A stretch of DNA of 55,115 bases from an uncultured Verrucomicrobiota bacterium (GTDB lineage: Bacteria > Verrucomicrobiota > Verrucomicrobiia > Opitutales > Opitutaceae). Of the stretch, positions 1 through 46,654 are shown piece after piece; the first letter of the stretch is position 1, and the number at the start of each line of letters is the position of its first letter. The translations under genes were made by a program, and so were the position numbers. Where the stretch lies: positions 1-55,115 of the forward strand of contig CAIRBK010000058.1 in the NCBI GenBank assembly GCA_903876795.1, given 5' to 3'. The notes below the pieces were generated by a model. The model was not told the origin of the DNA, did not search any database, and saw nothing but the letters and a program-made list of their open reading frames with translations.

Positions 1-98
1 CACGCCTTCCCGCACTCAAACCACGTGAAATCATGATATTAAACACCTGTTAACCCACGCTTTTTGCGAGTGCACTCACGCTGGCCTCAGCAGGATGA

Positions 99-539
99 TT
101 TAAAATCACATCTGGAAATGAAATTAGGACCTCCCTTAAGACGTCATACGAGTTGCTTTGGGCGGAAGTTCGAAAGCCTGAACGCTCCAACCTCGCGATT
201 CAAAACACGCTGCGGCGCATTCTGGAAAACTACTTCAAGATTCTGGGTGGCATCGAACTGGACCAGCTTTGCGATAAGTTCGACGGACGGGAAAAGATCA
301 TCTGCAAGTCCCTTGCCTCATGGGTGCATGATGGTTCGCACTATGCCCACGACGGCCTCTACGTCTCGATTGATGATTCGATGGTCGAGAACTACCTCAA
401 AGTCTTCAGAGAAATCTTTGTTAAAGAGCGCCAGATCGAGCACTACAAAATGATGATGGGGGATGCGTTTATTGAAGAGCCCGCAGCGGGAGCGCCCGTT
501 GCTACGATTCCAGCCGCAGTCCCTGTAGCAACGCCATAA
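99..539 (+). pseudogene. 3' remnant of an AAA_13-type (COG4694) ATPase gene
   Basis: The frame is open from 99 to the TAA at 537-539. It encodes what looks like only the C-terminal ~130 residues of a large AAA_13 ATPase, a family often found with restriction systems. Recognisable tail elements are SNLAIQNTLRRILENYF, a DGREKIICKSL stretch, WVHDGSHYAHDGLYVSIDDS and the final HYKMMMGDAF. The ATPase core (Walker A, coiled coils) is absent, and the same frame has a TGA at 96 and a TAA at 51, so the gene is broken within this window. The similarity to the family begins around residue KTSYELLW (about 138). A TTG at 153 or an upstream codon could still start translation, but a functional product is unlikely. 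It lies 2 bp before the methyltransferase gene. The family assignment is from memory of its conserved tail. Confidence 0.6.
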
Positions 540-541
540 CC

Positions 542-1891
542 ATGTCGCTCAACAAATCCATCGTCGAAGACGCCGCATCGCAGCGCACCACGCGGCTAGT
601 CCACAAACCGACCGCCATCAGCCTCTTCGCGGGCGCGGGCGGTTGCTCGCTTGGATTCGAGCAAGCGGGTTTCGATGTTCGGTTTGCGACGGACATTGAT
701 CGTGATGCGATGGAGTCCTATCGACGCAACTTTCTCGAAACACCTTGTGAAGTGGCGGATGTTCGCGACCTCGGGCCGGAAATGCTGTTGGATAAAGTCG
801 GACTCCGTTCCGGTGAACTCGACATTCTGCTAGGCGGCCCGCCATGTCAGGGGTTTAGCAGCGCGGGTATGAAGTCGGGCGAGGACCCTCGGAATTCGCT
901 GGTTCGGCACTACGTTCGCCTGCTCGAAGGCATCAAACCCAAATGGTTCGTCATGGAGAATGTCGAGGGGTTGCTGACAAACGATGGCGGGCTGCATGTT
1001 CGAGATGCAGTGGAGGCATTTCTCAACGCAGGTTACGCGGTCAATCTGGAGAAGGTATATGCTCAGGGCTACGGCGTCCCTCAGCGGCGTAAACGGGTGC
1101 TCATCGTGGGGAATCGCATCGGGCATGACTTCGTTTTCCCCAATGCTGTGACTCTGTTTTCGGGGAGCATCTTTCGAAAAGGTGAAATCACATTCTCGAC
1201 GGCGACGAGCGACCTGCCGCCGGCGACCACGGATGCAGGAAAGCCGCTCGCGCACATCGGTCCACCGAAAAACGAATTACAGACCTATCTCCGGGGAGAC
1301 GCGAAGACGGTTACGGATCACTTTTCGACATCGCTCTCGGAAATCCAATTGGAGCGGGTGCGAGGGTTGTCGCCTGGACAGACGATGAAGGACTTGCCGG
1401 AGCATTTGCAACACGAGTCGTTTCGTCGGCGCGCCTTTCGTCGCGTAATGGATGGCACACCCGTTGAACGGCGCGGTGGCGCTCCCTCCGGCCTGAAGCG
1501 TTTCTTTGCGGATGAACCCAGTCTGACCATCACGAGCGCGGCGACGAGGGAGTTTGTCCATCCGACCGAAGACCGATTGCTTACATTGCGGGAGTGCGCC
1601 CGATTGCAGACGTTCCCCGACTCGTTTGTCTTCGCCGGGAACGCTGCCAGCCGCATCCAGCAAATTGGCAATGCCATTCCCCCGATTCTCGCGCGCACGA
1701 TGGCAGAGCATATCTCGAAAGAATACGGCTTTGGCGTGCGCTACAACGGTTCAGTCCATCCGTCGCTTCGTTTTTGCCTGACTCGCTCCGAAGGCATGAG
1801 TCCAGCACTGGCCCGCACCGAGTTCGTGCTCACAGAGTTAGTGAAATCGAAGGAAGAACAACTCGTGTTATTCGAGAAACCAAAAATCTGA
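542..1891 (+). CDS. DNA (cytosine-5-)-methyltransferase of a type II RM system
   Basis: This 449-residue enzyme transfers a methyl group from S-adenosylmethionine to C5 of cytosine, protecting host DNA from the endonuclease encoded next. All the main C5-methylase motifs are visible. The SAM loop SLFAGAGGCSLGFEQAGF is near residues 27-44. GGPPCQGFSSAG carries the catalytic Cys at about 102. FVMENVEG holds the motif VI Glu at about 139. GYGVPQRRKRV is motif VIII near 177-185. The target-recognition region lies between there and motifs IX/X (LTLRECARLQTFPDSF and QIGNAIPP). The ATG at 542 follows the upstream stop by 2 bp, and the stop is 2 bp before the endonuclease ATG, so the two are translated from one message. 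GC content is visibly lower than in the genes after 2940, which points to acquisition by transfer. Sequence specificity cannot be read directly. Confidence 0.93.
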   Translation: MSLNKSIVEDAASQRTTRLVHKPTAISLFAGAGGCSLGFEQAGFDVRFATDIDRDAMESYRRNFLETPCEVADVRDLGPEMLLDKVGLRSGELDILLGGPPCQGFSSAGMKSGEDPRNSLVRHYVRLLEGIKPKWFVMENVEGLLTNDGGLHVRDAVEAFLNAGYAVNLEKVYAQGYGVPQRRKRVLIVGNRIGHDFVFPNAVTLFSGSIFRKGEITFSTATSDLPPATTDAGKPLAHIGPPKNELQTYLRGDAKTVTDHFSTSLSEIQLERVRGLSPGQTMKDLPEHLQHESFRRRAFRRVMDGTPVERRGGAPSGLKRFFADEPSLTITSAATREFVHPTEDRLLTLRECARLQTFPDSFVFAGNAASRIQQIGNAIPPILARTMAEHISKEYGFGVRYNGSVHPSLRFCLTRSEGMSPALARTEFVLTELVKSKEEQLVLFEKPKI

Positions 1892-1893
1892 CC

Positions 1894-2937
1894 ATGCCAA
1901 TCCCCATCGAAATCAAAAAGCTATTTAGTGCTGCACGCATTCTCGGCAGTGGAGACGACCGCGTAACGCTCTCGGAGAACGAGTTGTTTTGCCTGCTTAC
2001 CCAGTGCTGCTACGACCTCTCAATCCAAGCGTCGGTCTCACAACTGCCGCTCCTTTCTGCTCCTGCACCAAGTTCGGATTACTACCGTCTGCCCTTGGCG
2101 TGGTTTCAAACCCCACAAGCCGAATGCCCATCGGCAACCGCGCTGGTGGAGAGTTTGGCGGCGTGCATCGCATACGAACCCGATTTCGGCCTCTATTTCG
2201 CGAATCTCGCCGCGCTCCACAAGCGTCGCCGCAAGTATCAGCGCATCCTGTCCACGCAACCGCGTCCGACGATGAATCAAATCGGTCCTCGAAGTCTCCT
2301 TGAGTTCGGCGGCGTGCATCATGAGCTGCTTGCGGCTTGGCTCGTCTGGCGAAAATGGATTTACGATGTAGACGGACGAGCGGCCCAAGAAACAGGTTAC
2401 CTTTTTGAACCCGTCATCGCGAGCTGTCTTGGTGGTGAAGCGGTTGGGCATAAAAATTCGCCGGTGAAGAGGCTCAACGAGCAAGGGCAGACCACTGACG
2501 AAGGACGCCAGATTGATTGCTACGACGGAGAGAACCAACTGGCTTACGAATTCAAACTGCGCGTCACGATTGCCGCCAGCGGACAGGGGCGCTTTGGCGA
2601 AGAACTATCCTTTCCGGTAGAATGTCGAGCTGCTGGTCTTACGCCGGTTCTCGTGGTGCTCGATCCCACACCTTCGCATCGCCTCACGGAGTTGATCGCC
2701 AAGTTCGCCGTCAACGGAGGCAGGCATTACGTCGGGGCCGATGCTTGGGCACACATGGATTCAAAAGCAGGCAAGACAATGGCCGTATTTCTGGAGAGGT
2801 ATATCCGACCGCCGTTGACGGAAATGGCAACGCACGAGGACACCGGGCCTGAACCTATTCAGCTTTCGTGGTCGCCAGACGAGATACTCGTTCGAGGAAG
2901 TAACGAGAGTATTCGCATCCCCCGCAGGCCCGCATGA
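1894..2937 (+). CDS. Type II restriction endonuclease, ApaLI-like
   Basis: This 347-residue protein is the probable nuclease partner of the upstream methyltransferase. The start is the ATG at 1894, 2 bp after the methylase stop; a longer reading from 1594 would overlap the methylase and is unlikely. A PD-(D/E)xK-type active site is visible: GRQIDCYDGENQLAYEFKLR supplies Asp at about 208, Glu 219 and Lys 221. It is followed by TIAASGQGRFGEELSFP and VLVVLDPTP, which I recall as features of the ApaLI restriction family (known target GTGCAC). The C-terminal part (HYVGADAWAHM) also fits that family. The stop overlaps the next ATG (ATGA at 2934-2937), but that downstream frame is only a truncated hsdM. 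Base composition resembles the methylase and not the flanks. The nuclease role is fairly sure; the ApaLI specificity is inferred. Confidence 0.75.
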   Translation: MPIPIEIKKLFSAARILGSGDDRVTLSENELFCLLTQCCYDLSIQASVSQLPLLSAPAPSSDYYRLPLAWFQTPQAECPSATALVESLAACIAYEPDFGLYFANLAALHKRRRKYQRILSTQPRPTMNQIGPRSLLEFGGVHHELLAAWLVWRKWIYDVDGRAAQETGYLFEPVIASCLGGEAVGHKNSPVKRLNEQGQTTDEGRQIDCYDGENQLAYEFKLRVTIAASGQGRFGEELSFPVECRAAGLTPVLVVLDPTPSHRLTELIAKFAVNGGRHYVGADAWAHMDSKAGKTMAVFLERYIRPPLTEMATHEDTGPEPIQLSWSPDEILVRGSNESIRIPRRPA

Positions 2938-3716
2938 ATATGCTGCTGCACGGGGTGAAGGACACCGAGTTCGAGATCTACCACGGCGACACCCTCACCA
3001 ACGACTGGGACATGCTGCGGGAGACCAACCCGGCCAAGATGCCCAAGTTCGACGCCATCGTCGCGAACCCGCCCTTCAGCCTCCGGTGGGAGCCGACGGA
3101 GGAACTCGGCCAGGACGTGCGCTTCAAGAACCACGGCATCGCCCCCAAGTCCGCCGCCGACTTCGCCTTTCTCCTCCACGGTTTCCACTACCTCAAGGAC
3201 CAGGGCGTCATGGCCATCATCCTGCCCCACGGCGTGCTCTTCCGCGGCGGAGCAGAGGAGCGCATCCGGACCAAGCTGCTCAAGGACGGCCACATCGACA
3301 CCGTCATCGGCCTGCCCGCAAATCTCTTCTACTCGACCGGTATTCCGGTCTGCATTCTCGTCCTCAAGAAGTGCAAGAAGCCCGACGACGTCCTCTTCAT
3401 CAACGCCGCCGAACATTTCGAGAAGGGTAAGCGCCAGAACGTCCTCACCGAGGAACACATAAAAAAAATCGTGGAAACCTACCGCGACCGCCCAGAGAAG
3501 ATCGACCGCTACGCCCGCCGGGTCTCCATGTCCGAGATCGAGAAGGAAGACTACAACCTCAACATCTCCCGCTACATCAGCACGGCGAGCGCCGAGGAAG
3601 AAATCGATCTCACCAAAACCCACGCCGACCTCGTCGCCTTCGAAAGCCAAATCGCCGCCGCCAAGGCCAAGCACAACGCCTTCCTAAGGGAACTCGGCCT
3701 GCCAGCCCTCCCCTGA
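2934..3716 (+). pseudogene. hsdM: Truncated hsdM, type I restriction methylase subunit (3' half)
   Basis: The 260 residues match the C-terminal half of an HsdM N6-adenine methylase. They start at MNMLLHGVKDTEFEIYHGD and contain the catalytic motif IV NPPF in FDAIVANPPFSLRW, then FLLHGFHYLKDQGVMAIILP, GLPANLFYSTGIPVCILVLKK and the tail EKEDYNLNISRYI. Intact family members are about 500 residues, so the N-terminal helical domain and the SAM-binding motif I are missing. Upstream in this frame only about ten codons are open, to a TAA at 2901-2903, and homology seems to resume at ARMNM right after the endonuclease C-terminus. This marks the junction of the inserted type II cassette. No hsdS or hsdR follows. 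The ATGA overlap with the endonuclease stop could allow coupled translation of a dead fragment. High GC, like the chromosome downstream. Confidence 0.85.
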
Positions 3717-25856: not shown

Positions 25857-26780
25857 ATGAGCATTCTCATCACTCCCGAAACCAAGATCATGGTTCAAGG
25901 CATCACCGGTGCCTTTGGCGGCAAGCACGCCCAGCTCTCACTCGACTACGGAACACAAGTCGTCGCCGGCGTGACACCGGGCAAGGGCGGCCTGTTCTTC
26001 GAACACGGCGCGCATAAAGTCCCCATATTCAACTCGGTGCACGAAGCCGCCGCCGCCACCGGCGCCACCGTCTCGGTTATATTCGTGCCGCCTCCGTTCG
26101 CCGGCGACGCCATCCTCGAGTGCGTGGACGCCGGACTCGATCTCGCCGTGTGCATCACCGAAGGCATTCCGATCAAGGACATGATCCGTGTGAAGCGCGC
26201 GATGCAGGGCTCCAAGACCCGCCTTATCGGCCCCAACTGCCCCGGCCTGGTCACCCCCGGCACGGGCGAGGGCTCCAAGGGCGGCTGCCGCATCGGCATC
26301 GCCCCCGGCTACATCCACAAAAAGGGCCATGTCGGCATCGTCTCGCGCTCCGGCACCCTGACCTACGAGGCGGTTTTCCAAATCACCTCCAAGGGCCTCG
26401 GCCAGTCCACATCAGTCGGCATCGGCGGCGACCCGGTCAACGGCACCAGCCATCTCGACGTGATCAAGATTTTCAACGCCGACCCCGACACGAAGGGTAT
26501 CATCCTGATCGGTGAAATCGGCGGCAGCGCCGAGGTCGAAGCCGCCCGTTGGATCAAGGCCAACTGCAAAAAGCCGGTCGCCGGCTTCATCGCGGGTGCG
26601 ACCGCCCCCGCCGGACGCCGCATGGGCCACGCCGGCGCCATCGTCGGCGGCGTCGAGGACACGGCCGCCGCCAAGATCGCCGTTTTCAAGGAGTGCGGTA
26701 TCGAAGTTGCAACTACGCCGACCGACATGGCCGACGCGCTCCTGCGCGCCGCCAAGGCCAAGGGAGTCGACCTTGCCTGA
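25857..26780 (+). CDS. sucD: Succinate-CoA ligase subunit alpha
   Basis: The 307-residue alpha subunit binds CoA and carries the phosphorylated His. CoA-binding Rossmann text is VQGITGAFGGKHAQLSLDYG and VAGVTPGKGG; FVPPPFAGDAILECVDAG and LIGPNCPGLVTPG follow. The active-site His lies in RRMGHAGAIVGG near residue 257. GIGGDPVNGTSHLDVIKIF is also standard. It is 17 bp after sucC and is closed by a strong bidirectional terminator. Confidence 0.97.
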   Translation: MSILITPETKIMVQGITGAFGGKHAQLSLDYGTQVVAGVTPGKGGLFFEHGAHKVPIFNSVHEAAAATGATVSVIFVPPPFAGDAILECVDAGLDLAVCITEGIPIKDMIRVKRAMQGSKTRLIGPNCPGLVTPGTGEGSKGGCRIGIAPGYIHKKGHVGIVSRSGTLTYEAVFQITSKGLGQSTSVGIGGDPVNGTSHLDVIKIFNADPDTKGIILIGEIGGSAEVEAARWIKANCKKPVAGFIAGATAPAGRRMGHAGAIVGGVEDTAAAKIAVFKECGIEVATTPTDMADALLRAAKAKGVDLA

Positions 26781-35011: not shown

Positions 35012-35093
35012 GTGGCGGGGGCATGAGGCAAGAGTCTCCCGCGCCATTAGCAATGCCAGGCTCGACCAATTTGTTGGGATTATTCACAGGCGC

Positions 35094-37248: not shown

Positions 37249-37971
37249 TTATTTCTTGGCGGCGGGAGCTGCGGCGGGCTTGGCGCCGGCGGCGGGAGCG
37301 GCAGCCTTGGCGTCGCCCGCAGGGGCGGCGGCGGGAGCGGCGGCGGCGCCGGCGGCAGGAGTGGCGGCGGCACCGGCGGCAGGAGTGGCCGCGGCGACTT
37401 CGCCCACAGGCTCCACGCAGGAGACGACCGGCTGGCCCTTGGCATCAAGGAAATCGACGCCGGGGAGGGGCTTGAGAGTGCCGACCTTGAACGCCTCGCC
37501 GACCTTCAACTCGGTGACGTCCACCTCGATGACGGGGGGAAGGTCCTTGGGAAAGCAGCGGATGCGAAGGGCATGCGTGGCGATTTCCAACACGCCGCTC
37601 TGATTCTTCACGCCAAAGGACTCGCCGATCACGGAAACCGGCACGCGAATCTCGAGCTTCTCGTCGGCCTTCACTTCCTGAAGGTCGACATGGAGGAACT
37701 TGTCGGTGATGGGATCACGTTGGACCTCTTGCAGGAAGGAGAGTGCCTTGGTGGGCTTGTCCTTGCGGTTGAGCTCGATGAGGAGCGCACGACCGGCGAC
37801 GGACTTGAGAAGGCGGACGAACTCGGGCGCTTCGATTGCGAGCGTCTCCGGGTTGGTGTGCTTTCCGTAGAGGATCGCAGGGATCTGGTTGGCTTTGCGC
37901 ACGCGGCGCGAGGCGGAACGGCCGGTTTGGGCACGGGCCGAGACGTTGAGGATCAGTTGTTGTTTGCTCAT
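37249..37971 (-). CDS. rplY: 50S ribosomal protein L25/general stress protein Ctc
   Basis: The 240-residue protein is of the two-domain Ctc type. The N-terminal 5S-rRNA-binding part is LNVSARAQTGRSASRRVRKA and IPAILYGKHTNPETLAIEAP; the C-terminal beta domain has DFLHVDLQEVKADEKLEIRV-type sequence (KFLHVDLQEVK) and IRCFPKDLPPVIEVDVTEL. After about residue 190 there is an unusual tail of some 45 residues made almost only of Ala, Pro, Gly, Thr and Lys, with TPAAGAAA repeats. It is upstream of pth. Confidence 0.94.
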   Translation of the reverse strand: MSKQQLILNVSARAQTGRSASRRVRKANQIPAILYGKHTNPETLAIEAPEFVRLLKSVAGRALLIELNRKDKPTKALSFLQEVQRDPITDKFLHVDLQEVKADEKLEIRVPVSVIGESFGVKNQSGVLEIATHALRIRCFPKDLPPVIEVDVTELKVGEAFKVGTLKPLPGVDFLDAKGQPVVSCVEPVGEVAAATPAAGAAATPAAGAAAAPAAAPAGDAKAAAPAAGAKPAAAPAAKK

Positions 37972-38151: not shown

Positions 38152-38226
38152 TGCCTGGTAGCTCAGTGGCAGAGCAGGTGACTGTTAATCACTTGGTCGT
38201 AGGTTCGACCCCTACCCGGGCAGCCA
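38152..38226 (+). tRNA. tRNA-Asn (anticodon GTT)
   Basis: A full cloverleaf is visible: acceptor TGCCTGG with CCGGGCA, D-arm with AGCTCAGTGGCAGAGCA, anticodon loop CTGTTAA reading GTT, T-arm GTAGG-TTCGACC-CCTAC, and an encoded CCA end at 38224-38226. A TTGACA lies at 38098-38103, but no well-spaced -10 is clear. The 3' part from 38181 is duplicated at 46598-46643, since the gene is the integration target of the adjacent element. Confidence 0.97.
38181..38226 (+). repeat. attL: 3' half of tRNA-Asn
   Basis: This 46-bp segment runs from the anticodon stem to the CCA end and is repeated at 46598-46643 with two differences (G/A and C/T, 44 of 46 identical). The crossover probably lies in the identical anticodon-loop part ACTGTTAATCACTTGGTC. 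The element supplies the 3' half that keeps the tRNA functional. Confidence 0.92.
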
Positions 38227-38230
38227 TTTA

Positions 38231-38268
38231 CCCCTCAATTACTTATACAAGTTTTTGAGGGGTTTTTT
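38231..38268 (+). terminator. Terminator downstream of tRNA-Asn, element side
   Basis: CCCCTCAA (38231-38238) pairs with TTGAGGGG (38255-38262) and is followed by a run of T. It lies just inside the element, so the island provides a terminator for the interrupted tRNA transcript. Confidence 0.8.
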
Positions 38269-38286
38269 TATGGTCATCTTTTTTTG

Positions 38287-38308
38287 ACTGTCCCGCTACT
38301 GTCCCGCT
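38287..38308 (+). promoter_or_regulatory. Left-end tandem 11-mers, candidate integrase arm sites
   Basis: Two directly adjacent identical copies of ACTGTCCCGCT (38287-38297 and 38298-38308). The same motif in the form ACTGTCCCGTT is found near the right end (46454-46464), next to a degenerate tandem partner and with an inverted copy. Position about 60 bp inside the att core fits arm-type binding by the integrase; an excisionase or phage-encoded activator site is possible too. Confidence 0.55.
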
Positions 38309-38379
38309 TTTCAGACGCTCAATCCTCGGCGCACACGCGATTGACGACACCGCCCCCGAGTCCGAAGGTCTGCCCCAAG

Positions 38380-38556
38380 ATGAGCGAGCGTCCCAAGATC
38401 AAACTGACGGAGGAGCACAAGCGGATGAACGCTCTGGCAGTGAAGTCGCAGGCCAAGCTGGACGCCGACTACAAGACGCGCTACGCGCAGCCGGGCTCGT
38501 TCCAGAAGGCGGCATCGGAGCAGTTCGACCGGATCAGGGCAGCCGTTCAACGCTGA
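38380..38556 (+). CDS. Small hypothetical protein of the island
   Basis: I take the ATG at 38380 (MSERPKIKLTEEHKRMN), giving 58 residues; the frame is open from 38284 but that part overlaps the left-end 11-mers. The product is hydrophilic, rich in Lys, Arg, Ala and Gln, and predicted mostly helical (AVKSQAKLDADYKTRYAQPG). No known family is recognised. A strong purine-rich ribosome site is not evident. It lies alone before a 424-bp non-coding stretch. It could be a small DNA-binding or accessory protein, or not a gene. Confidence 0.4.
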   Translation: MSERPKIKLTEEHKRMNALAVKSQAKLDADYKTRYAQPGSFQKAASEQFDRIRAAVQR

Positions 38557-38980
38557 GTCGCTCCGAACAGGAGCAGGCCCTCACTGAGTGGGCGCGTGAA
38601 AGTAGGCGCGGCGCCGGCGCGGGACCAGTCTCAAGGTAGGTCGAAGAACCTCGGCGAAGCCGGTTCACCCGCCCGCGTAGCAAAAAAACTCGCCCATAAA
38701 AAACTGATAACACAGGAAGACGCCAGAGGGCGACTAAGCGACTCCTAGTCGGACCTGATTTTCTACTTCATAATTTACTGTGGACAAGCGATTTTCGGAT
38801 GGCAGCTCTTCGCACATGGCAGTCGAAAGCCCAAGCGATATTAAGTCACCAATCGCCTCGCGTCGGACGGTGGAGGGTGCCCTGACTGGCGCCCAATTTC
38901 GACCCATTGTCCGGCGTGGGGCACTAACCCAAGCAGTGAAGCCGTAGGACGCTGAAACTGCACCGAAAGGAAAACCAGCC
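38557..38980. other. Non-coding stretch inside the island
   Basis: No convincing gene is seen; the minus-strand frame from 39438 to 38734 runs antisense to the next gene and has poor composition. The A/T-rich part at about 38680-38780 contrasts with its GC-rich surroundings and could hold a promoter or replication origin for the element. A ribosome site AAGGAAAA precedes the ATG at 38981. Confidence 0.4.
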
Positions 38981-39391
38981 ATGCCAGAGAAAGTCGCCCG
39001 CGTAAAACGGGCAGAAGACCCACGCGTCACCCATGCGATTACGCTGATCCGAGCCGTGCTCGAAGAGCAGGCGGAAGCAGTCGCAACAAGCGGTAGCGGC
39101 ATCCCTCGCGTTGAAACTCTCGCGAAGGAGCTGGCCCGTGATCGCAAATACACCACCACGATCATGCTCGCCGTGCTCAATGACGCACCCGTCCCAGTCA
39201 AAGTGTTTTCACCGTGGATGTCATACGCCCGCCTCAACCATCTGGAACGCGCCGGCACGGTGAAGCTGACCCGCAAGAACGGAAAGGTGATGCTGCGCGC
39301 ATCGGAGTTCTTTGAGCTGATCAACCAACTCCCCGAGGACAAGCGCCGGAGCAAATCGAAGAAACCGGAAGGCCAGGAGGACGAACTATGA
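38981..39391 (+). CDS. Hypothetical island protein, possible winged-helix
   Basis: A 136-residue protein with a good ribosome site (AAGGAAAA, about 8 bp upstream). The N-terminal half is helical (HAITLIRAVLEEQAEAVAT). VETLAKELARDRKYTTTIMLAVLN and LNHLERAGTVKLTRKNGKVML look like helices followed by a beta-hairpin wing, so a winged-helix fold is possible but not proven. The C-terminus is strongly charged (DKRRSKSKKPEGQEDEL). Its stop overlaps the next ATG (ATGA at 39388-39391). No family is recognised with certainty. Confidence 0.65.
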   Translation: MPEKVARVKRAEDPRVTHAITLIRAVLEEQAEAVATSGSGIPRVETLAKELARDRKYTTTIMLAVLNDAPVPVKVFSPWMSYARLNHLERAGTVKLTRKNGKVMLRASEFFELINQLPEDKRRSKSKKPEGQEDEL

Positions 39392-39765
39392 GCATTCGCT
39401 TTTACGAAGACGCGCAACGGAATGGGGAGAAGTGCCACAAGCTGCCCGTCGTCAATTGGGTGGCTCGGCAGTTCGAGGAGGAGTTCGGCAACATGCGATC
39501 CGCGGTGCCCGCCTTCATCTCTGATGTTCGAATGGCCGTGGAACTTGGCACACTGACGCCGGACTTGGGTGAAATTCCGTGGGAGTTTGACGCCGGAACC
39601 TCAGCACTGGAAGCCACTCGCTTTCACCGCTACATCGCTCTCCCGCTCGACCTGGACCGCCAGTTTGAGCAACTGGCACGCGCTCACGGCCTGACACCGA
39701 ACGCCGCGCTGTGCTTGCTGATGACGTGGCGTGCACTCCACGGCTGGGTGATACCGGGCCGGTGA
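39388..39765 (+). CDS. Hypothetical island protein, coupled to the preceding gene
   Basis: This 125-residue protein starts with the 4-bp ATGA overlap, so it is co-translated with the gene upstream. The sequence has no signal or membrane segment. LDLDRQFEQLARAHGLTPNAALCLLMTWRALHGW near the C-terminus looks like an alpha-helical recognition-like module, comparable in shape to ribbon-helix-helix or HTH ends, but no family is recognised. Composition is normal for a soluble protein. Confidence 0.6.
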   Translation: MSIRFYEDAQRNGEKCHKLPVVNWVARQFEEEFGNMRSAVPAFISDVRMAVELGTLTPDLGEIPWEFDAGTSALEATRFHRYIALPLDLDRQFEQLARAHGLTPNAALCLLMTWRALHGWVIPGR

Positions 39766-39955
39766 TTCCGCCAAGTATGGGCACCCCTTGTAACGCGCCC
39801 CCGTATCGGCGAGTAGCAGCGGCAACAATCCGAACCTACTTCCCGACTCGCTTCCCCCTGAAATTTCCGCAGGCCACCCCCACCCTAATTTCCAAAAAAA
39901 ATCGGGCTGGGGTTTTTGAAAACTTGCCCTGCCCAAAACTCGGGTTCTCGCTTGC

Positions 39956-40534
39956 GTGATGCTCCAACTGTCCCGACTTGAGCCCCTACCTTGGAACATC
40001 CGGCCTCGGTTGCTGCTCAGGGTTGATACTTGGCTCAACGGGATGCCGCGAATGGTGTATCCCGACATCTCGCACGATGACGGCAAGGCACGGCTCCGGC
40101 CCTACACCGCATGGCCGCGCTGCACTCGCTGGATTTCCTACAAACAAACGCGGTCCGAGAGCGGAGAGCGCGTCTTTGGCTCATGGCGTTTCCGATCCGA
40201 CTGGCTGGCGGAAAAATTGATTATCGGTGCGGCGGCGTCCTACGTTGAGCATTATCTGGACGAGACGCTGATTTGCTGGCTGCGCGACCGGGACAACGCC
40301 GACGAACGTGTCTCCGCGCTTCCTGACAACTGGAACATAGTCGCTCTTTACCTACTGCTCTACGTTGAGAACGGAGACTGCCGGCCTTTCTGCATGACTT
40401 GTGGTCGGAACATTGCCCACGCCGATCTCAGCCTTGAAAATACCGGCGGCCGCAAGGGCGACATTGGCAAGGTTGTCCGCTGCAACCGCGGGCATGTGCT
40501 TCTAGACCAGCGCTGCTTGATCCACATCGACTGA
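39956..40534 (+). CDS. Hypothetical island protein with a zinc-ribbon-like C-terminus
   Basis: About 192 residues from GTG 39956 (or the ATG at 39959). The middle is rich in Trp, Tyr and Arg (AWPRCTRWISYKQTRSE, SWRFRSDWLAEK). The C-terminal part has FCMTCGRNIAHADL with a CxxC pair and VVRCNRGHVLLDQRC with Cys and His, which suggests one bound zinc. A near-copy of the 11-bp end motif (ACTGTCCCGAC) lies at the 5' end of the gene, about 39967. A 190-bp gap precedes it. It converges with 40542-40874. Possible cargo with defence or regulatory role; nothing more can be said. Confidence 0.6.
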   Translation: MMLQLSRLEPLPWNIRPRLLLRVDTWLNGMPRMVYPDISHDDGKARLRPYTAWPRCTRWISYKQTRSESGERVFGSWRFRSDWLAEKLIIGAAASYVEHYLDETLICWLRDRDNADERVSALPDNWNIVALYLLLYVENGDCRPFCMTCGRNIAHADLSLENTGGRKGDIGKVVRCNRGHVLLDQRCLIHID

Positions 40535-40541
40535 CAAAGTT

Positions 40542-40874
40542 TCAGGGCACCGCAGCGCCGCCTGCGCTGGCCGTGGCGAGGCTTTCGGATGCCGGCGCGG
40601 GTGGTGACGGCTCCTCACTGGTGCAGAGCGAGTAATCAGCCACAGGCGCAACCCGTTTGGTCCACGCGAAGACGATCACCCCAGGACCGTCAGGCTGCGC
40701 GTTCCGGGCGGCAGCAGCCTTGGCGTGAACCTCGTGCTCCGAGTATCCGGCCTTCGTTATCATGGCGCGGGCTTGCATCATGCCCCAAGCGGCGCGCTCC
40801 TGTGCATCACAAAAGGCACCGTAGATATCTGCCAGAGCATCTATATTTCCGTTTTTATCAGGTGTCGTTTTCAT
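40542..40874 (-). CDS. Hypothetical island protein
   Basis: A 110-residue protein whose ATG overlaps the stop of the primase-helicase gene (ATGA at 40871-40874), so it is the last gene of the replication module. The N-terminal 60 residues look helical (IDALADIYGAFCDAQERAAW, MMQARAMITKAGYSEHEVHAKA); the C-terminal 25 are Ala/Pro/Ser-rich and probably unstructured. No family is recognised. Confidence 0.5.
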   Translation of the reverse strand: MKTTPDKNGNIDALADIYGAFCDAQERAAWGMMQARAMITKAGYSEHEVHAKAAAARNAQPDGPGVIVFAWTKRVAPVADYSLCTSEEPSPPAPASESLATASAGGAAVP

Positions 40875-42703
40875 CGTAAATAGACGTGCGCAGCCTTGCC
40901 GGGGGCGTCAGCGAATTGCATGGACGGCCCGTGCAGCCACAAATTCCGGAAGGGCTCGACCCCCGTCTTGCGGTTCTTCCAGCACGCAATCGACGCCGAT
41001 GGAGCCGCGAGCAATTCAGGCGGCACCGTGCCGTTGAGGGATTTGGCGCGCGCCTCCTCCAGTTTGGTCTCGCGGTCCTTGTTCCGCCATACCGACCAGC
41101 CGTTATGCACAAGGTCGGTGATTGCTGCGGCACCTCGAATATCCAATTTGCCCGGCGGGTTCTTCTCGTCGTCTTTCTTTCGTGAATGTGCGACAAGGTG
41201 AATGTGGACTTGGTGCTCTGCGGCGAACGACACCACGGCGCTCACAAACTCCCTCTGCCCGTCGTAATCATCCTCCGCGATACCAGCCCGCAAAAGTGAG
41301 TCGATTACGATGCGTCGGATACCGTAGCGGCGAACAGCATAGGCGAAAACCGGCAGGAACTCGCGCCATGGCTTCACTCCCACCACATCGTAGAACCAGA
41401 CGCCGCCACCCAACCAGGCAACCGCTCCGTCTGCCTCTTGGCGGGTGCGAGGCTCGCGCCCCAATGCCATGCGCGCCATCTGCGCGATACTTTGCCGCAC
41501 CGGCATCTCGAAAGAGGCTATGAGCACGCGCTGGGCGGTCTGCGCGAAATCGTGCAGCACGACATGATTGAGGAGCAGGCTTTTCCCGTGACCGCTCCAA
41601 CCGGTCCAGATTGTCACCTCGCCGGGCCGGATGCGCCAGTCAACCCGCCATGGAGTTTCCGAGCCGACGGCATCGCTGGTGGGGTTCATCTCCTCCCACA
41701 GCTCCTCCGCATAATCGGCCGCGCTGCGCAGTTCCACAGGGTCGAGCGTCTTTGCCCGGTCAAGCGCATCATCGAAATCAGGGCCGAGAAACTTTCCGGA
41801 GCACTCGGCCTCGTTGGCGTCCTTGAAACCTGGCAAGATCACGCGGAAGCACCGCTCACGTCCGAGTCGTTGCGCAATGGCCTCAGCACAGGCATGGCCG
41901 GGCTCATCAGCGTCAGTCGCGAGAAATATGCGGTCGAATCGAGCGAGGGCGTCAAAGTCGTGCTCGATCCAATCGAGGTTTTTCACTCCAGACGGGACGG
42001 ACAGCGCCGAGTGCCCCCAACCTGCTACCGTCAGAGCGTCGATCTCGCCTTCGGTGATTACGACATGGCGGGCGTTTTTGCCGATCGCCTGCCAGCCGAA
42101 CAGATGGGGGCGGGAGTCCGCCGTTGCCCAAATAAATTTCTTTCCGTCCTCACCACGCTTCACGGCGAGATACTTCACGAGGTCCACCGCCAACCCGCGG
42201 TTGTCGAATACGGGGAACACACAAGATGCCCCGAACTTTGAGTGCGTCATTTGCTGAACGCGGTAGGCGTCCAGAACTCCGGCATCGAGTTTCCGAGATT
42301 TCGTGAGGTAGTCGAAGACCGGCCCGCCTGTCGTCAGGGGCTCGTGCTGGTCGAGAATCGGTCGGGCGTAGTGCTTGGCCGTGGCCACCGGTCGGAAAGC
42401 CGTCCCGGTGCGCTCGTCCTTGATACCAAGCCAGTCCTTGGCCTGCCGTAGCGCCTCCACGAAGTCCAAGCCACGCACGGACGCCCAGAGATCGAGTAGA
42501 TCACCGCTCTCGCCTGACGAGAAGTCAGACCAGACCCCGGCCTTTGCGCCGTCGAGACGGACCTTGAGAGACTGGCCGGCATCGCCATTGGTCGAGCCTG
42601 CGCACCACTCCGCACCTTGGCGTTTGCCGTTCGGGAGGAGTAGCGCGGCTACCTCTTCGGCCCGTGATGCGAGCAGGGTTTTGATTTCAGAAGCATTTTT
42701 CAT
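40871..42703 (-). CDS. Toprim primase / RecA-type helicase (T7 gp4/Twinkle-like)
   Basis: A 610-residue replication protein of the island. Residues about 215-300 form a Toprim domain with VVITEGEIDALTVAGWGHSAL (catalytic Glu) and FLATDADEPGHACAEAI (Asp-x-Asp). From about 350 a RecA-like helicase has Walker A WTGWSGHGKSLLLNHV, SFEMPVRQSIAQMARM, the Walker B-like IRRIVIDSLLRAG and VHIHLVAHSRK. The N-terminus (GAEWCAGSTNGDAGQSLKVRL, GVWSDFSSGESGDLLDL) resembles the primase head of such proteins, but the usual zinc-finger Cys set is not present. It should open and prime the element's own origin. Both ends overlap neighbours by ATGA, indicating one operon. Confidence 0.88.
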   Translation of the reverse strand: MKNASEIKTLLASRAEEVAALLLPNGKRQGAEWCAGSTNGDAGQSLKVRLDGAKAGVWSDFSSGESGDLLDLWASVRGLDFVEALRQAKDWLGIKDERTGTAFRPVATAKHYARPILDQHEPLTTGGPVFDYLTKSRKLDAGVLDAYRVQQMTHSKFGASCVFPVFDNRGLAVDLVKYLAVKRGEDGKKFIWATADSRPHLFGWQAIGKNARHVVITEGEIDALTVAGWGHSALSVPSGVKNLDWIEHDFDALARFDRIFLATDADEPGHACAEAIAQRLGRERCFRVILPGFKDANEAECSGKFLGPDFDDALDRAKTLDPVELRSAADYAEELWEEMNPTSDAVGSETPWRVDWRIRPGEVTIWTGWSGHGKSLLLNHVVLHDFAQTAQRVLIASFEMPVRQSIAQMARMALGREPRTRQEADGAVAWLGGGVWFYDVVGVKPWREFLPVFAYAVRRYGIRRIVIDSLLRAGIAEDDYDGQREFVSAVVSFAAEHQVHIHLVAHSRKKDDEKNPPGKLDIRGAAAITDLVHNGWSVWRNKDRETKLEEARAKSLNGTVPPELLAAPSASIACWKNRKTGVEPFRNLWLHGPSMQFADAPGKAAHVYLR

Positions 42704-43755
42704 CGGTAAAGCGGGTTAAGACTCCAGTCGGTGCCTGCACTGCCGCTGGCGCCATTCTTGGACTGGTCACAGCGCGCCCAATGTTTAGCCAGGGCTGGAG
42801 CCGTCAGGGCGGCGTCGCGGAAGTGATCGCGGTAATTGGCGGCGCGGCGTTTGATTTCGTCGGCAGTGAGGGAGGGCGTCACCTTCTGGATCTTCGAGAG
42901 GGCAACACCAACGGCGCGGGAAGTATCGGCCGTCAGTTGGAACGGATCGCCGTCGGTGGCGACGGCCAGCGCATCGAACAGCGGATTGCGAGGGCGCACA
43001 GACTCACCATTCCGCGCGAGCTTCGGAGGAACGGAATCGCTTGGGAATAATTCTCCTACACCTCCCGATGGCGGAGCCGGAGGTATGGATTGAATCGTCG
43101 TTTCATCAACCGTCGTTTCATATACCCCCCCTTCACCGGCCGGTCGGTCAACCGAGGGTCGGTTTAGGGTGGGTCGGTTGGCACTATCTGCCGACCCGCC
43201 TTTTTCGGGTGTCGGTGTTGGTTGCTCCGACCTCCTTTTTTCGGGGTTCGGCGTTTCACTGAAATACCTGCGATTCCTAAATTTGCCCCCAGCACCCTGA
43301 TTCTTCTCAAGCCAAGAATACCCGAATTTCTCCAGTTCATGGAGTGCAGAAACCACAGCTTTTTCTCCTTCGTTACTGGCATCTGCGAGACGATCAGCGG
43401 CGTGTTCCCAGTCGGACGGAAGGCTCAGCACAAAGGCCAGTAAGCCACGCGCTCGATAGCTCAAACGACCATCCTGAAGGAGGGTATTGTCGAGGCGGAC
43501 GAAGCGTGATGCCTTCGTCTTCGGTGCGCGCGTGACCCGACTACGCGGTGATGGCTGTGCGGTGTTCGGTGCTGCGGTGCCCTGCTCATTTACCGGATAG
43601 GATGGCACCGGCAGTGGATCCGGAACAACAGACGGCAGTGTTCGTCCAGTTTGTCGTTCAAATGCAGCGCGCATCTCCAGCGGCACCGGCTTGCCATGGG
43701 CTGCAAGGCGCTCAATACCGGCGAGCATTACGGAAGGAAGATCAGCGTTTTTCAT
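42700..43755 (-). CDS. Initiator-like winged-helix replication protein
   Basis: About 351 residues from the ATG at 43755 (MKNADLPSV); the frame is open to 43782. The centre (FVRLDNTLLQDGRLSYRARG, LLAFVLSLPSDWEHAADRLADAS, EGEKAVVSALHELEKFGYSW) is the HTH module found in phage and plasmid replication proteins that loads at an origin. A Pro/Thr/Arg-rich linker (residues about 170-260) leads to a C-terminal helical block (LTADEIKRRAANYRDHF, ALAKHWARCDQS) that may bind the helicase. It ends in ATGA overlap with the primase-helicase, supporting a joint role in replicating the element. Confidence 0.72.
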   Translation of the reverse strand: MKNADLPSVMLAGIERLAAHGKPVPLEMRAAFERQTGRTLPSVVPDPLPVPSYPVNEQGTAAPNTAQPSPRSRVTRAPKTKASRFVRLDNTLLQDGRLSYRARGLLAFVLSLPSDWEHAADRLADASNEGEKAVVSALHELEKFGYSWLEKNQGAGGKFRNRRYFSETPNPEKRRSEQPTPTPEKGGSADSANRPTLNRPSVDRPAGEGGVYETTVDETTIQSIPPAPPSGGVGELFPSDSVPPKLARNGESVRPRNPLFDALAVATDGDPFQLTADTSRAVGVALSKIQKVTPSLTADEIKRRAANYRDHFRDAALTAPALAKHWARCDQSKNGASGSAGTDWSLNPLYR

Positions 43756-43933
43756 CGGTGGCGTGGACTGCACCGCGCTCAATCTCGTCGAGCTGTTCGT
43801 GCAGGCGGGCTAAAGTTTTACGGCGGGATTCAATGGAGGTCGTGATACGTGCCGCCTTGGCCTCCGCCGCACGGACGTCCGCGTCGAGGAATGCAATACG
43901 GCGGCGAAGCTCAGCGGCGTCGGTGGTTGGCAT
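43742..43933 (-). CDS. Small coiled-coil island protein
   Basis: About 63 residues from the ATG at 43933 (MPTTDAAELRRRIAFLDADV). It is almost entirely a heptad-like helix of Ala, Arg, Glu and Leu, so a coiled coil is likely. It overlaps the next gene's start by 14 bp. No known family; a DNA-binding accessory or a replication partner is possible. Confidence 0.5.
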   Translation of the reverse strand: MPTTDAAELRRRIAFLDADVRAAEAKAARITTSIESRRKTLARLHEQLDEIERGAVHATDEKR

Positions 43934-43938
43934 CGGGA

Positions 43939-44154
43939 TCAGTTCCAAACGCCGGGGTTGAGACGCTGGCGCCACCCGATGATACAGAAGACAAGGCCGC
44001 TCAGGGCATCTTCCGAACGGAGGGTTCGCGCCGTGCGAGTCGCCGCCTTTTCAAGGTAACCAAGGAGGCGGGCTACAATGCGACGGATCAGGTTGACCCG
44101 TGAGTCATCTTTTGCACGGTGAAGTGCAGTTACTGGCGGGTGCTCGGCACTCAT
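43939..44154 (-). CDS. Small hypothetical island protein
   Basis: A 71-residue basic protein (RIVARLLGYLEKAATRTARTL), with a short hydrophobic patch LVFCIIGW near the end. It sits 6 bp before the coiled-coil gene's start and about 40 bp after the HTH gene. No family recognised; Arg-rich composition would suit DNA contact. Existence is supported mainly by its place in the tight gene row. Confidence 0.4.
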   Translation of the reverse strand: MSAEHPPVTALHRAKDDSRVNLIRRIVARLLGYLEKAATRTARTLRSEDALSGLVFCIIGWRQRLNPGVWN

Positions 44155-44192
44155 GGCGTTTCTAAGCGTGGGGATATGGGGAACCTGCCTCG

Positions 44193-44426
44193 TTATGCAG
44201 ACACGTCGGTTCCGCCAACACGGGCGCCGGCGACGAAGCGCAGGACCTCGGCGAGGTCGAACAGCACGATGCGAGCATTCAGCTTGTGTGTGCCGAAGTG
44301 ACCGGCAGCGGCCCAGCGGTGAACGGTCTTGGTGCTGACGTTGAGACGCGCAGCAAGGGCGCGGGCCTTGAGGAATTGCGGGCCAGAATCGGCCGCGCCT
44401 TTCACGGGTTCTTTTGCTTTGGTCAT
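44193..44426 (-). CDS. AlpA-like/excisionase HTH_17 DNA-binding protein
   Basis: A 77-residue protein with one MerR-type winged helix: FLKARALAARLNVSTKTVHRW, then AAAGHFGTHKLNARIVLFDLAEVLRFVAG. The pattern of a helix-turn-helix followed by a short beta wing and DLAEVLRF is that of excisionases and AlpA regulators. In phage satellites AlpA controls int and excision, so it is the likely switch of this element. It stands between the unknown gene 44498-45139 and the replication genes. Confidence 0.85.
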   Translation of the reverse strand: MTKAKEPVKGAADSGPQFLKARALAARLNVSTKTVHRWAAAGHFGTHKLNARIVLFDLAEVLRFVAGARVGGTDVSA

Positions 44427-44497
44427 AAAAAGACCAGAAGCGGAAAGACTGAGAATTAGGAGACGCCCGCCGTGAGCATTTCAGAAATGCTCACAAC

Positions 44498-45139
44498 TTA
44501 TTCGATCAGCCCCAACCTTCGCCACTTGCTGAGTTGCTTCCGGAATCCGTCGCTACCTCTGGGCCAATAAACCTCCTCTTTTGCCTCAGCCGCAACCACC
44601 TCGTAGAAATTGGCGTGGCCGCTGGTAACTTTGAGGTCACCTCCGCGGTGTGCTAATTCAGCGAGTCGATATAGAGCGGCAGACAACTCGTGTTTCCTCA
44701 ACTCGTCGGGACTCCGCTCACGGCGGGACCCGCTCGCGGCTGCAACAGCCGGCTCGAACTTAATCTGAGCGGCTGCTCCCTCGGCCAACATCGCCAAGGC
44801 GACAACACTCAACAGGTCCTTCTTGCCACCTGCCAAGGCGCGGAGCTTGCGAGCAGCACAAAGACCATTCGCAGCATGGATCGCTACCCTTGCGCGCGCC
44901 GCTTTAGCGCGGTGGCTCAAGTTCTGTGCGTCATGGGCCAGTCCAAAAAATCGGCCCATGTTGATGTCCGACGCGGACTCATCCCAGCAACCAGCCTCAC
45001 GCAGTGCTCCTATAAATGCCGCCTCAAGCCCGTCGAGACGCTCGGATACAGCCGCAGGCTGAAACAGCGGACTCCGAAAAAGGATCGGGAGCAGAACGCC
45101 ATCGATGCGCTTGAACCTTTTTTCTGCGGCCGTGCTCAT
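44498..45139 (-). CDS. Hypothetical island protein coupled to the integrase
   Basis: A 213-residue protein from the ATG at 45139, which overlaps the integrase stop by 4 bp; the frame open to 45385 is antisense-like and not used. The protein is helical with repeated Ala/Leu/Arg text (RAKAARARVAIHAANGLCAAR, LSVVALAMLAEGAAAQIKF). It contains no membrane segment or known motif. Co-translation with the integrase suggests a role in integration, excision or replication control of the element. Confidence 0.55.
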   Translation of the reverse strand: MSTAAEKRFKRIDGVLLPILFRSPLFQPAAVSERLDGLEAAFIGALREAGCWDESASDINMGRFFGLAHDAQNLSHRAKAARARVAIHAANGLCAARKLRALAGGKKDLLSVVALAMLAEGAAAQIKFEPAVAAASGSRRERSPDELRKHELSAALYRLAELAHRGGDLKVTSGHANFYEVVAAEAKEEVYWPRGSDGFRKQLSKWRRLGLIE

Positions 45140-46500
45140 GCGGTTCCCTCCATCGCCCGCAGTTGAGCGCCGCCGATGCTGACCTCGACCCGCTTCCGCT
45201 TTTCTACGTAGTGCGACGACGTGGTGCGGATGTCCCGGTGGCCGAGGTGCTGGCGGGCGGCCTCGATGCCGTGCGACGATGCGATGAGAGACCCGGACTC
45301 CTTGCGCAGGGAGTGAATCGCCTTCCGGTCCGTGACGCCCTTGCCGCGCAGCCAGGCATTGAGATCCCGCCAAGTGCAATCGCATCGGTAGAAATCGTAA
45401 GTCGCGGTCGGATCGGGGTCGCTCCCTTTCAGGACAAACTCCGACTCGCTCCAGGACTTTAACGACCGCAACACGTCCACGGCCTCCGGCGCCAGATCGA
45501 TCGTGCGGACGGCCTCCTCGGTTTTAGGCTCGAAGAAGGCCGTGCGCCGCACGCTGAGGGTGCCGCCCTCCAGATCAACCTGCGCCCACAGCAGCAAATC
45601 CGCCTCCTTCCGCCGCAGACCGGCCCAAAGGCACAGAAACAGGGCAAGGTATTGATTCGTGTTATCGGCCCGCAAATCGCGTTCCGCGCAGGCCAGCAGC
45701 CACGCCGGATCGATCTCGCTGTGATAACGCGCGGGGCCGGGATCCTTGAGCTTCACCCCGACAAACGGGTTGGCCGGCAGCTTCACCTTGAGCACAGAAA
45801 GCACGTCCTCGGCAAAGAGCGCGCGGACACACCGCATGTAGGACGCCGCCGACCGCTCAGCTGACTTCCGCTTCACCGGATCGGCGCCGGCGCGCGCCAC
45901 GTAGGCATTGCGCCACGCGTTGATCTCTTCCGCGGTGAGGACGTCGAGCGGCTTTCCATCAACCCGCGCAAGCCAGGCCGCCCGCCCGCCGTTGACGTGA
46001 TCGTATTTCGCCCGCTTGGCTTTGGTCTTCAAACCAGTCTCTAGCTTGGCGATGTCGGCAACCATCTTGCGCAGTTTCACCGCATACCGCCGCACGGTCT
46101 TCGCCTTGAGGTGACTACGGGCCTCCACGTCGGCTAAGAACTCACCCACGGTGCAAATTGCGGACTTTGCGAGGGGGCTGGGCTTGAACTTCGGCAGCGT
46201 AGCATCCCACCCCGCCGACACCAGCGACAGGTAAATATCGCGAGCCTTCACCGTGGCGGCGGACTGGTTGGCAGTTTCCAGATTGAACCACACATCACGG
46301 CCCAAATGCCGCATCCGCACAGAGTATTCCGGCGGGATACCGCGCTTGCCGTCGCGAGTGACGAACGGGCGCCGAACGACACGCGTCTTCCAGTAATCTT
46401 GGTGTGTCTTCGAGGCCCGCGATAACGGGACAGTCACCTTTGACATTCCCGTTACTGTCCCGTTTTTTGTGTCCGCTATAGTCTCGTGATGTCCACTCAT
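45136..46500 (-). CDS. int: Site-specific tyrosine recombinase (integrase)
   Basis: A 454-residue phage-type integrase. The N-terminal SAM-like/arm part is rich in basic residues (TRVVRRPFVTRDGKRG). The catalytic domain shows the first Arg in LCLWAGLRRKEADLLLW, the His-x-x-Arg in AIHSLRKESGSL, His in LGHRDIRTTSSHY and the nucleophile Tyr of the same stretch. The start is ATG 46500 or the ATG at 46446; the right-end 11-mers overlap this 5' part. It lies at the right boundary, about 100 bp from attR, as expected for an island integrating into a tRNA gene. Confidence 0.95.
   Translation of the reverse strand: MSGHHETIADTKNGTVTGMSKVTVPLSRASKTHQDYWKTRVVRRPFVTRDGKRGIPPEYSVRMRHLGRDVWFNLETANQSAATVKARDIYLSLVSAGWDATLPKFKPSPLAKSAICTVGEFLADVEARSHLKAKTVRRYAVKLRKMVADIAKLETGLKTKAKRAKYDHVNGGRAAWLARVDGKPLDVLTAEEINAWRNAYVARAGADPVKRKSAERSAASYMRCVRALFAEDVLSVLKVKLPANPFVGVKLKDPGPARYHSEIDPAWLLACAERDLRADNTNQYLALFLCLWAGLRRKEADLLLWAQVDLEGGTLSVRRTAFFEPKTEEAVRTIDLAPEAVDVLRSLKSWSESEFVLKGSDPDPTATYDFYRCDCTWRDLNAWLRGKGVTDRKAIHSLRKESGSLIASSHGIEAARQHLGHRDIRTTSSHYVEKRKRVEVSIGGAQLRAMEGTA
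46424..46464 (-). promoter_or_regulatory. Right-end 11-mers, candidate integrase arm sites
   Basis: ACTGTCCCGTT lies at 46454-46464, preceded directly by the degenerate ACATTCCCGTT (46443-46453), a tandem pair like the one at the left end. An exact inverted copy AACGGGACAGT is at 46424-46434. The sites cover the first codons of int, so binding there could also repress it. Confidence 0.55.
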
Positions 46501-46597
46501 GTCCTAAGTTAGAAATAGATTTCACCTAATTAATCAGGCGAAAAACAGGTAACAGACGCAGACATTGACGGACAACAGAGGACACGCAAAGCAAATA

Positions 46598-46643
46598 ACT
46601 GTTAATCACTTGGTCATAGGTTCGATCCCTACCCGGGCAGCCA
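46598..46643 (+). repeat. attR: displaced 3' half of tRNA-Asn
   Basis: The 46 bp equal the left repeat except for two transitions; the G-to-A change breaks the first T-stem pair, so this copy would not make a sound tRNA 3' half. It marks the right edge of the element. Confidence 0.93.
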
Positions 46644-46654
46644 CTTTAGTTCAC

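Follow-up and report, generated by a model that had tools for sequence, protein, structure and literature searches.

What kind of mobile element sits in the tRNA-Asn gene of an Opitutaceae bacterium, and does it depend on a phage for its movement? The locus lies in a 55,115-nucleotide stretch of DNA (the window), which is contig C58 of a genome assembled in 103 contigs totalling 3.57 Mb (G000, "own genome" below). The element, here called E1, had been described in an initial annotation as a satellite-like island of the phage-inducible chromosomal island (PICI) type. That E1 is mobile and belongs to a coherent Opitutaceae family whose members swap modules is well supported. At a probability of about one half, we further favor the reading that E1 is an intact-looking member of a new family that lives as a minimal phage satellite, similar to the phage-inducible chromosomal minimalist islands (PICMIs), with a helper left unnamed. 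This reading is preferred because the plan of E1 is PICMI-like, its replication genes are of phage type, no transfer genes were recognized, and its size is near that of a sister element.

Attachment site and gene content of E1

E1 lies in a tRNA-Asn gene, between two attachment (att) copies 8,417 bp apart. The 46-bp repeats first proposed as att sites are real but imperfect, since 44 of 46 positions are identical, and they leave the tRNA intact. The repeat in full measures 61 nt at 89% identity (38169-38229 vs. 46586-46646, repeat scan); the runner-up among widely spaced repeat pairs in an 11-kb scan was 27 nt at 78%. Eleven open reading frames (ORFs) were accepted between the att copies, four on the plus strand and seven on the minus strand. 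The features are as follows.

38152..38226, plus: tRNA-Asn(GTT), intact (ARAGORN; Rfam tRNA 65.9 bits)
38181..38226, plus: left att copy, the last 46 nt of tRNA-Asn
38287..38308, plus: tandem 11-nt repeat ACTGTCCCGCT, probable integrase arm sites
38380..38556, plus: orf1, 58 aa (amino acids), no family; 43/58 identical in the sister element E2
38981..39391, plus: u1, 136 aa, no family; 48/133 identical in E2
39388..39765, plus: u2, 125 aa, 4-nt overlap with u1; 108/125 identical in E2
39956..40534, plus: zn, 192 aa, Cys/His-rich C-terminus (by eye)
40542..40874, minus: sm, 110 aa, no convincing family; 4-nt overlap with the primase-helicase gene
40871..42703, minus: Toprim primase-helicase of phage type; 4-nt overlap with the initiator gene
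42700..43782, minus: replication-initiator-like protein (phrog_4707, 5.1e-19)
43742..43975, minus: cc, small coiled-coil-like protein (by eye), conserved in E2 and in genome G035
44193..44426, minus: AlpA/excisionase-like HTH_17 protein (HTH_17, 1.1e-6; phrog_66, 1e-7)
44498..45139, minus: u3, 213 aa, no family; begins on the ATGA of the int stop
45136..46500, minus: tyrosine integrase (int), 454 aa (Pfam Phage_integrase, 1.6e-10; phrog_1, 5.5e-29)
46424..46464: inverted pair AACGGGACAGTCAC / GTTACTGTCCCGTT inside the 5′ end of int, probable integrase arm sites
46598..46643, plus: right att copy, 44/46 identical to the left

All frames are open, and 4-nt overlaps join u1 to u2, the initiator gene to the primase-helicase gene, the latter to sm, and int to u3. 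Profile scans covered Pfam, PHROGs, NCBIfam and PADLOC for ten of the proteins and the first two of these collections for orf1. Profiles of Pfam or PHROG bore out each of the four functions originally assigned, namely integrase, AlpA-like protein, initiator and Toprim primase-helicase (phrog_239, 5.5e-94; Toprim_2, 8.9e-9; AAA_25, 3.5e-12); the other seven of the 11 are without a convincing family, in keeping with the several genes left unassigned at the outset. No virion, lysis, conjugation, relaxase or partition gene was recognized among the 11 proteins by profile scans. This agrees with the initial annotation, and capsid or tail homology, which would have spoken against it, was looked for among the E1 ORFs and none was recognized. 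A TraI_TIGR match to the primase N-terminus was discounted (58 residues, 2.1e-7, 28.8 bits vs. a cut-off of 929.85), as were matches of the AlpA helix-turn-helix (HTH) to a small-terminase PHROG (0.0087) and Pfam Phage_terminase (0.072), which cover the HTH only. PADLOC profiles matched only the Toprim region (DRT-associated DnaG-like, 8.8e-12), the AlpA HTH (mad1, 1.2e-7) and the ATPase (mad8, 0.0044).

The nearest named relatives of the primase-helicase are in temperate-type Pseudomonas phages (43-45% identity), and 326 plasmid records hold a relative; the best of these matches are in records of 37-52 kb which, guessing from their size, may be phage-plasmids. Searches by tblastn of phage records gave no match for u1, u2, u3, zn or a 215-aa gene of E2, and zn had no match among plasmids. 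In the E1 initiator gene three 10-mer iterons were counted, a number reached by 2 of 40 codon shuffles, and nothing was found with 12-mers (39/40); neither count was used as evidence.

The motif CTGTCCCG occurs five times in the 55 kb, and at least five copies also arose in 16 of 100 shuffles. Four of the five copies lie at the two ends of E1, in the tandem repeat at 38287-38308 and the inverted pair at 46424-46464; the chance that four of five random places fall inside 440 bp is ~2e-8, the 440 bp having been picked after the sites were seen. From their position, the copies at the E1 ends are probable integrase arm sites. A similar doublet lies 3′ of tRNA-Asn in three of 11 genus mates (G117, G548 and G190; in G150 only 20 nt are visible), and in G190 a like doublet also adjoins a sister integrase.

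The tRNA-Asn gene adjoins rplY in all 11 genus mates that have an rplY match (G178 has none). In nine mates neither a second att copy nor a match to an E1 protein was found 3′ of tRNA-Asn (over 19.9 kb in six and 4.6-13.6 kb in three); in the remaining two the contig stops 20 bp and about 265 bp past the tRNA gene. On the right flank, the order PPIase-glycosyltransferase is kept in 5/5 loci compared, and none of those stretches has a tRNA gene. Among the genus genomes read, the DNA past tRNA-Asn is not the same (in G190 it has restriction genes), which marks this as a variable site. At 37258-37408 of the window, repeats in a 12-nt register with an Ala-rich translation lie within the C-terminal coding part of the rplY-like gene.

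A sister element in the same genome

The zn protein has a 95% partner on contig C92 of the own genome, where it belongs to a second element, E2, bounded as follows.

C92 35061-35136, minus: tRNA-Arg
C92 ~26377-26414 and 35053-35090: 38-nt repeat (97%), copies 8,676 bp apart

Drawn as circles, E1 and E2 have the same plan: orf1-u1-u2-zn converges on a replication operon, and the att site lies between the AlpA-like end and orf1. Identities across the common block span 36-96% (zn residues 35-192, 151 of 158 identical), cc is 61% identical over 79 residues, and the start of the initiator is 73% identical over 48. The integrase and the HTH_17 protein of E2 differ from those of E1, the integrases lie on opposite sides of the att site, and E2 has an ERCC4 nuclease and a DnaC-like loader where E1 has the primase-helicase. 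Integrase and replication modules have thus been exchanged between E1 and E2 around a common block. In the E2 initiator gene the iteron count showed nothing (40/40 codon shuffles) and was not used as evidence. Ratios of nonsynonymous to synonymous substitution (dN/dS) between E1 and E2, each resting on one pair and few sites, are 0.21 for u2, 0.08 for zn and 0.39 for cc, and u2 and zn were under purifying selection.

Comparison with known satellites

On architecture, the PICMI is probably the nearest published plan and a closer match than the PICI. In the parts of the PICMI report on which we draw (PMC10803314), the prototype measures 6.1 kb and the mean is 6.7 kb; PICMI115 has the order int, iolg, alpA, up1, prim, with iolg overlapping int by ATGA, and requires iolg and alpA for excision and prim for full replication. 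The same parts of the report make int, alpA and prim mandatory, record a gene overlapping int in 21 of 35 subfamilies (ATGA being the commonest overlap), and state that homologues of terS, sid and ppi were not found and that defence genes may be carried (PMC10803314). A helper phage induces PICMIs, and their DNA is packaged in concatemeric form. Judged by function and order against that account, E1 is likewise small, has no recognized terS, sid or ppi homologue, and carries co-located int, alpA and primase genes together with a small gene and an int-overlapping gene, u3, on the ATGA of the int stop (function predicted). It differs in its size of 8.4 kb, its separate initiator and an orf1-u1-u2-zn block without family matches.

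Gram-negative PICIs, in the portion of the review available to us (PMC6092414), have int at one end, an AlpA-type regulator, a pri/rep module and no structural or lytic genes, and E1 shows this arrangement, no structural or lytic gene having been recognized. The typical size of ~15 kb is stated there for Gram-positive PICIs (PMC6092414); E1 measures 8,417 bp, and an island with a sister integrase in genome G064 measures 15.8 kb. Further PICI traits listed are terS or helper cos/pac sites, PICI-exclusive genes and phage-dependent induction (PMC6092414). Interference with the phage, packaging by it and att sites not known to be used by prophages also mark PICIs. The satellite-like island of the initial annotation stands, whereas its PICI label is unwarranted: PICI-exclusive genes, terS and cos/pac sites all went unrecognized in E1, and the PICMI is closer. 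E1 should not be filed as either a PICI or a PICMI.

P4 satellites carry sid, psu and delta genes and a fused alpha protein. In E1 no sid/psu/delta-like gene was recognized, and the initiator and primase-helicase are separate and of phage type. What it shares with P4-like satellites, as far as they are outlined in the same portion of the review, is an integrase, an AlpA-like protein and a replication protein (PMC6092414). E1 is unlike a prophage in that profile scans recognized no capsid, portal, terminase or lysis genes.

Relatives of E1 in other genomes

The primase-helicase was searched in 200 family genomes (E <= 1e-3) and in 384 genomes of the class (E <= 1e-25). It matched in 26 of the 200 (own genome included), the sole strong match (69%) being in G179, of another genus. 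There, in element E3, int is followed by a gene sharing 4 nt with it, an unassigned gene of 119 aa, one of coiled-coil-like type, the initiator gene (phrog_1032, 2.2e-7) and the primase-helicase gene. An AlpA protein is not claimed for E3, because the 119-aa gene has no family in Pfam or PHROG. A tRNA-3′-like sequence lies upstream of the E3 int (by eye), and the contig ends on the other side of the element. The E3 initiator gene (L038 2839-3714, minus) contains 3.4 copies of a 21-bp repeat at gene positions 422-492, which we take to be a possible lambda-type origin; it has no clear counterpart in E1 or E2. A 12-mer iteron count in the same gene was reached by 2 of 40 codon shuffles and was not used as evidence.

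At the class level, four of the 384 genomes (own included) have a match. A relative of 35-37% identity in G309 is the only one in a phage-like gene neighbourhood; two of the three relatives outside the own genome look like isolated initiator-primase remnants. By eye, G309 had been taken for a prophage with terminase and portal, a view we dropped: neither PHROG nor Pfam matches a 645-aa gene, and a 765-aa gene gives only a sub-cut-off SU10_portal match (3.9e-4) and no PHROG, so that the capsid side is weakly supported. The gene row is not confined to complete prophages, as E1, E2 and E3 all lie outside them.

The integrase is more widespread, matching in 51 of 252 family genomes (own included) at E <= 1e-30. 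G053 has a split integrase of the E1 subfamily together with two PM2-like capsid matches, one above and one below the cut-off. Scans of genome contigs gave seven integrase loci, the named ones including Geminisphaera colitermitum TAV2 (Opitutaceae), which confirms the verrucomicrobial host first suspected, and no match for the primase-helicase. At 21 integrase loci examined (20 places and G190), a relative of the E1 AlpA lies nearby in seven, and paired tRNA ends were found in four: G064 (tRNA-Asn, 15.8 kb), G125 (tRNA-Phe, 10.8 kb), G588 (tRNA-Asn, 5.9 kb) and G122 (tRNA-Asn, 16.2 kb). The expectation that such rows would recur at other tRNA genes was borne out, by E2 at tRNA-Arg in the own genome and by the integrase subfamily at tRNA-Asn and tRNA-Phe. 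An ORF of at least 190 aa overlaps int by 4 nt in seven of 23 loci (E1, E3, G190, G035, G128 with GTG, G032 and G122); nine have overlaps with shorter ORFs alone, and seven have none.

Several of these loci carry other genes. The G064 island, bounded by perfect tRNA-Asn repeats, holds a BT4734-type gene and, as likely defence cargo, a reverse transcriptase with hsdR, hsdS and hsdM; the row hsdR, reverse transcriptase, hsdS, hsdM (L105:6621-16366) is possibly a combined one. In G190 a 46-nt tRNA-Asn fragment (97.8%) adjoins a 77% integrase and an AlpA relative, with a BT4734-type primase-like gene next in line. On a different contig of this genome, tRNA-Asn is followed by hsdM, whose link to the integrase is for that reason unproven. 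In G035, a DUF499 protein of 944 aa (1.5e-30; L103:11118-13952) is encoded downstream of an integrase of the E1 type and a relative of AlpA. In a ~2-kb stretch of G117 (L073:9380-11500), a truncated relative of the E1 integrase lies between tRNA-Met and a copy of the tRNA-Met 3′ end, with CTGTCC repeats on both sides; it is probably a remnant.

Co-resident phages as candidate helpers

Two phages of the own genome are candidate helpers of E1. The first, Mu-like, is on contig C54 (L176:6593-9841 onward) and matches Terminase_6N (1.2e-19) and Portal_Mu (5.3e-65) as well as PHROG terminase and portal families. It was the one place in the own genome given by phrog_2, and its genes were checked individually because that profile also fires in 13 of 14 control genomes; a PF03354 scan of the own genome for a tailed helper was negative. 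Long unrelated-looking ORFs of 1,035-1,064 aa past the Mu-like prophage genes may be a defence locus.

The second candidate is contig C70 (4,759 bp), which is a fragment of a PM2-like tailless phage. Its capsid gene (2775-3617, minus) encodes a PM2-type double-jelly-roll protein (P2_N, 7.8e-26; P2_C, 1.7e-16; phrog_8536, 1.2e-18; PM2 P2 in PDB, E 0.0024). C70 also has small ORFs with membrane-like stretches (by eye), and the proteins of its genes 546-1469 and 3-542 (both minus) start nearly alike. Directly upstream of the capsid gene is a distant u2 homologue, 30% identical over 101 aa (hidden Markov model E 1.6e-5 in the genome). It scores 25.9 bits, whereas 8,558 shuffled ORFs reach 8.9 at best, and a probable shadow ORF elsewhere scores 19.2 bits with the same model.

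With E <= 1e-3 as threshold, PM2-like capsids match in 15 of the 252 family genomes, nine of them above the Pfam cut-off. The integrase subfamily is present in four of these nine vs. 20 of the 243 others (one-sided p 0.006), and in three of eight when the own genome is left out (p 0.028); the test is post hoc, with no correction for relatedness or for genome size. Nine capsid loci, drawn from eight other genomes, showed no u2 match and no E1-type replication gene; the only E1 or E2 proteins matched there were the E2 integrase (at 28%) and sm (over 40 residues). PM2-like (Vinavirales) prophages of Verrucomicrobia are already published and, in the part of that paper at hand, are reported without the usual regulators P15/P16 and TR_Z1 (PMC9502842). 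E1 resembles such prophages in this one u2 homologue and differs from them in having no capsid or packaging-ATPase gene.

Satellite, helper-free island or prophage remnant

It is possible, though on balance unlikely, that E1 needs no phage helper and is instead a genomic island or a plasmid-like integrative element. After excision, its own initiator and primase-helicase would replicate it, u1, u2 and zn would be regulators or cargo, and it would move by conjugation in trans (from an unrecognized oriT), transformation or generalized transduction. The lack of a recognized packaging gene fits, as do the 326 plasmid records with primase-helicase relatives and the islands of 5.9-16.2 kb with integrases of the same subfamily, one with restriction genes, which look like ordinary defence islands; yet no relaxase was recognized in E1, zn had no match among plasmids, and the closest plasmid records may themselves be phage-plasmids. 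A decaying prophage that has lost its virion genes and kept those for integration and replication is a good deal less probable. The relatives in temperate-type phages, the isolated initiator-primase remnants at class level and the broken zn of E2 speak for decay. Independent decay would not, however, produce the agreement of E1 and E2 in plan, near-equal size and common block while their other modules differ; moreover, u2 and zn were under purifying selection, and the E1 frames are open, with several adjoining genes overlapping by 4 nt.

Slightly more improbable still is the reading in which E1 and E2, as satellites, depend on a tailless phage of Opitutaceae, PM2-like (double-jelly-roll), and not on a tailed one. 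The PM2 genome is roughly 10 kb (Vibrio PM2 relatives, 10.6-15.1 kb), and no capsid remodelling would be needed, since a circle of 8.4-8.7 kb would fit a capsid built for ~10 kb. The position of the u2 homologue on C70 and the co-occurrence of integrase and capsid are consistent with such a helper, to whose late programme u2 would tie E1; a u2-type protein could even be the missing regulator, given the absence of P15/P16 and TR_Z1 in the available part of the Vinavirales report (PMC9502842). Against this stand the single u2-capsid neighbourhood, the nine capsid loci without u2, the shadow-ORF score of 19.2 bits beside 25.9 for C70, and the fact that E1 shares no DNA with C70.

The satellite reading with an unnamed helper, which we retain, has its own difficulties. 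Neither a terS, sid or ppi-like gene nor a cos/pac site was recognized in E1, and E1 shares no DNA with C54 or C70 at E <= 0.01. PICMIs, in the parts of the report used here, lie at fis, never number more than one per genome, and are complete in Vibrio only (PMC10803314), whereas E1 lies at tRNA-Asn with its sister at tRNA-Arg of the same genome. The flanks of E1 were never found joined, and no empty site was seen, among the mates and loci compared. Integrase-AlpA rows also drive the larger islands of 15.8 and 16.2 kb, which may be plain defence islands. The ratios of orf1 (dN/dS 0.94) and u1 (0.72) indicate little constraint, zn is frameshifted in E2, and single-sequence AlphaFold structures of u2 and zn (mean pLDDT 49.8 and 28.9) are too poor to use. 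Among viral contigs, no relative was found of zn, int, u2 or the initiator, nor of the C70 capsid or the 215-aa gene of E2, and the primase-helicase has relatives on only two contigs, at no more than 39-40%; these scans are low in power because exact short peptides are needed.

If E1 is a satellite, it would rest in tRNA-Asn until a phage, on infection or induction, gives a signal that raises AlpA. Together with the integrase and the int-overlapping u3, AlpA would then excise the circle via the CTGTCC arm sites, the cc-initiator-primase/helicase operon would replicate it, and the helper capsid would carry it out of the cell. With no capsid-remodelling gene recognized, packaging would use a concatemer or a headful, or E1 would simply fit a small capsid. 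We infer this cycle of induction, excision, replication and packaging from the gene content.

Implications

In full-text listings of open-licence PMC papers, none dealt directly with phage satellites in Verrucomicrobiota, and among the papers listed by a literature search no title or abstract described a satellite of a tailless icosahedral dsDNA phage, which is what the PM2 link, if true, would mean. If E1 is a satellite, the minimal plan of int, overlapping gene, AlpA and primase would extend far outside Vibrionaceae, and a single genome would provide a pair of sister elements along with two kinds of candidate helper. In E1 and E2, integrase and helicase modules are traded while one block stays, and orf1-u1-u2-zn is therefore the place to look for a hijacking function.

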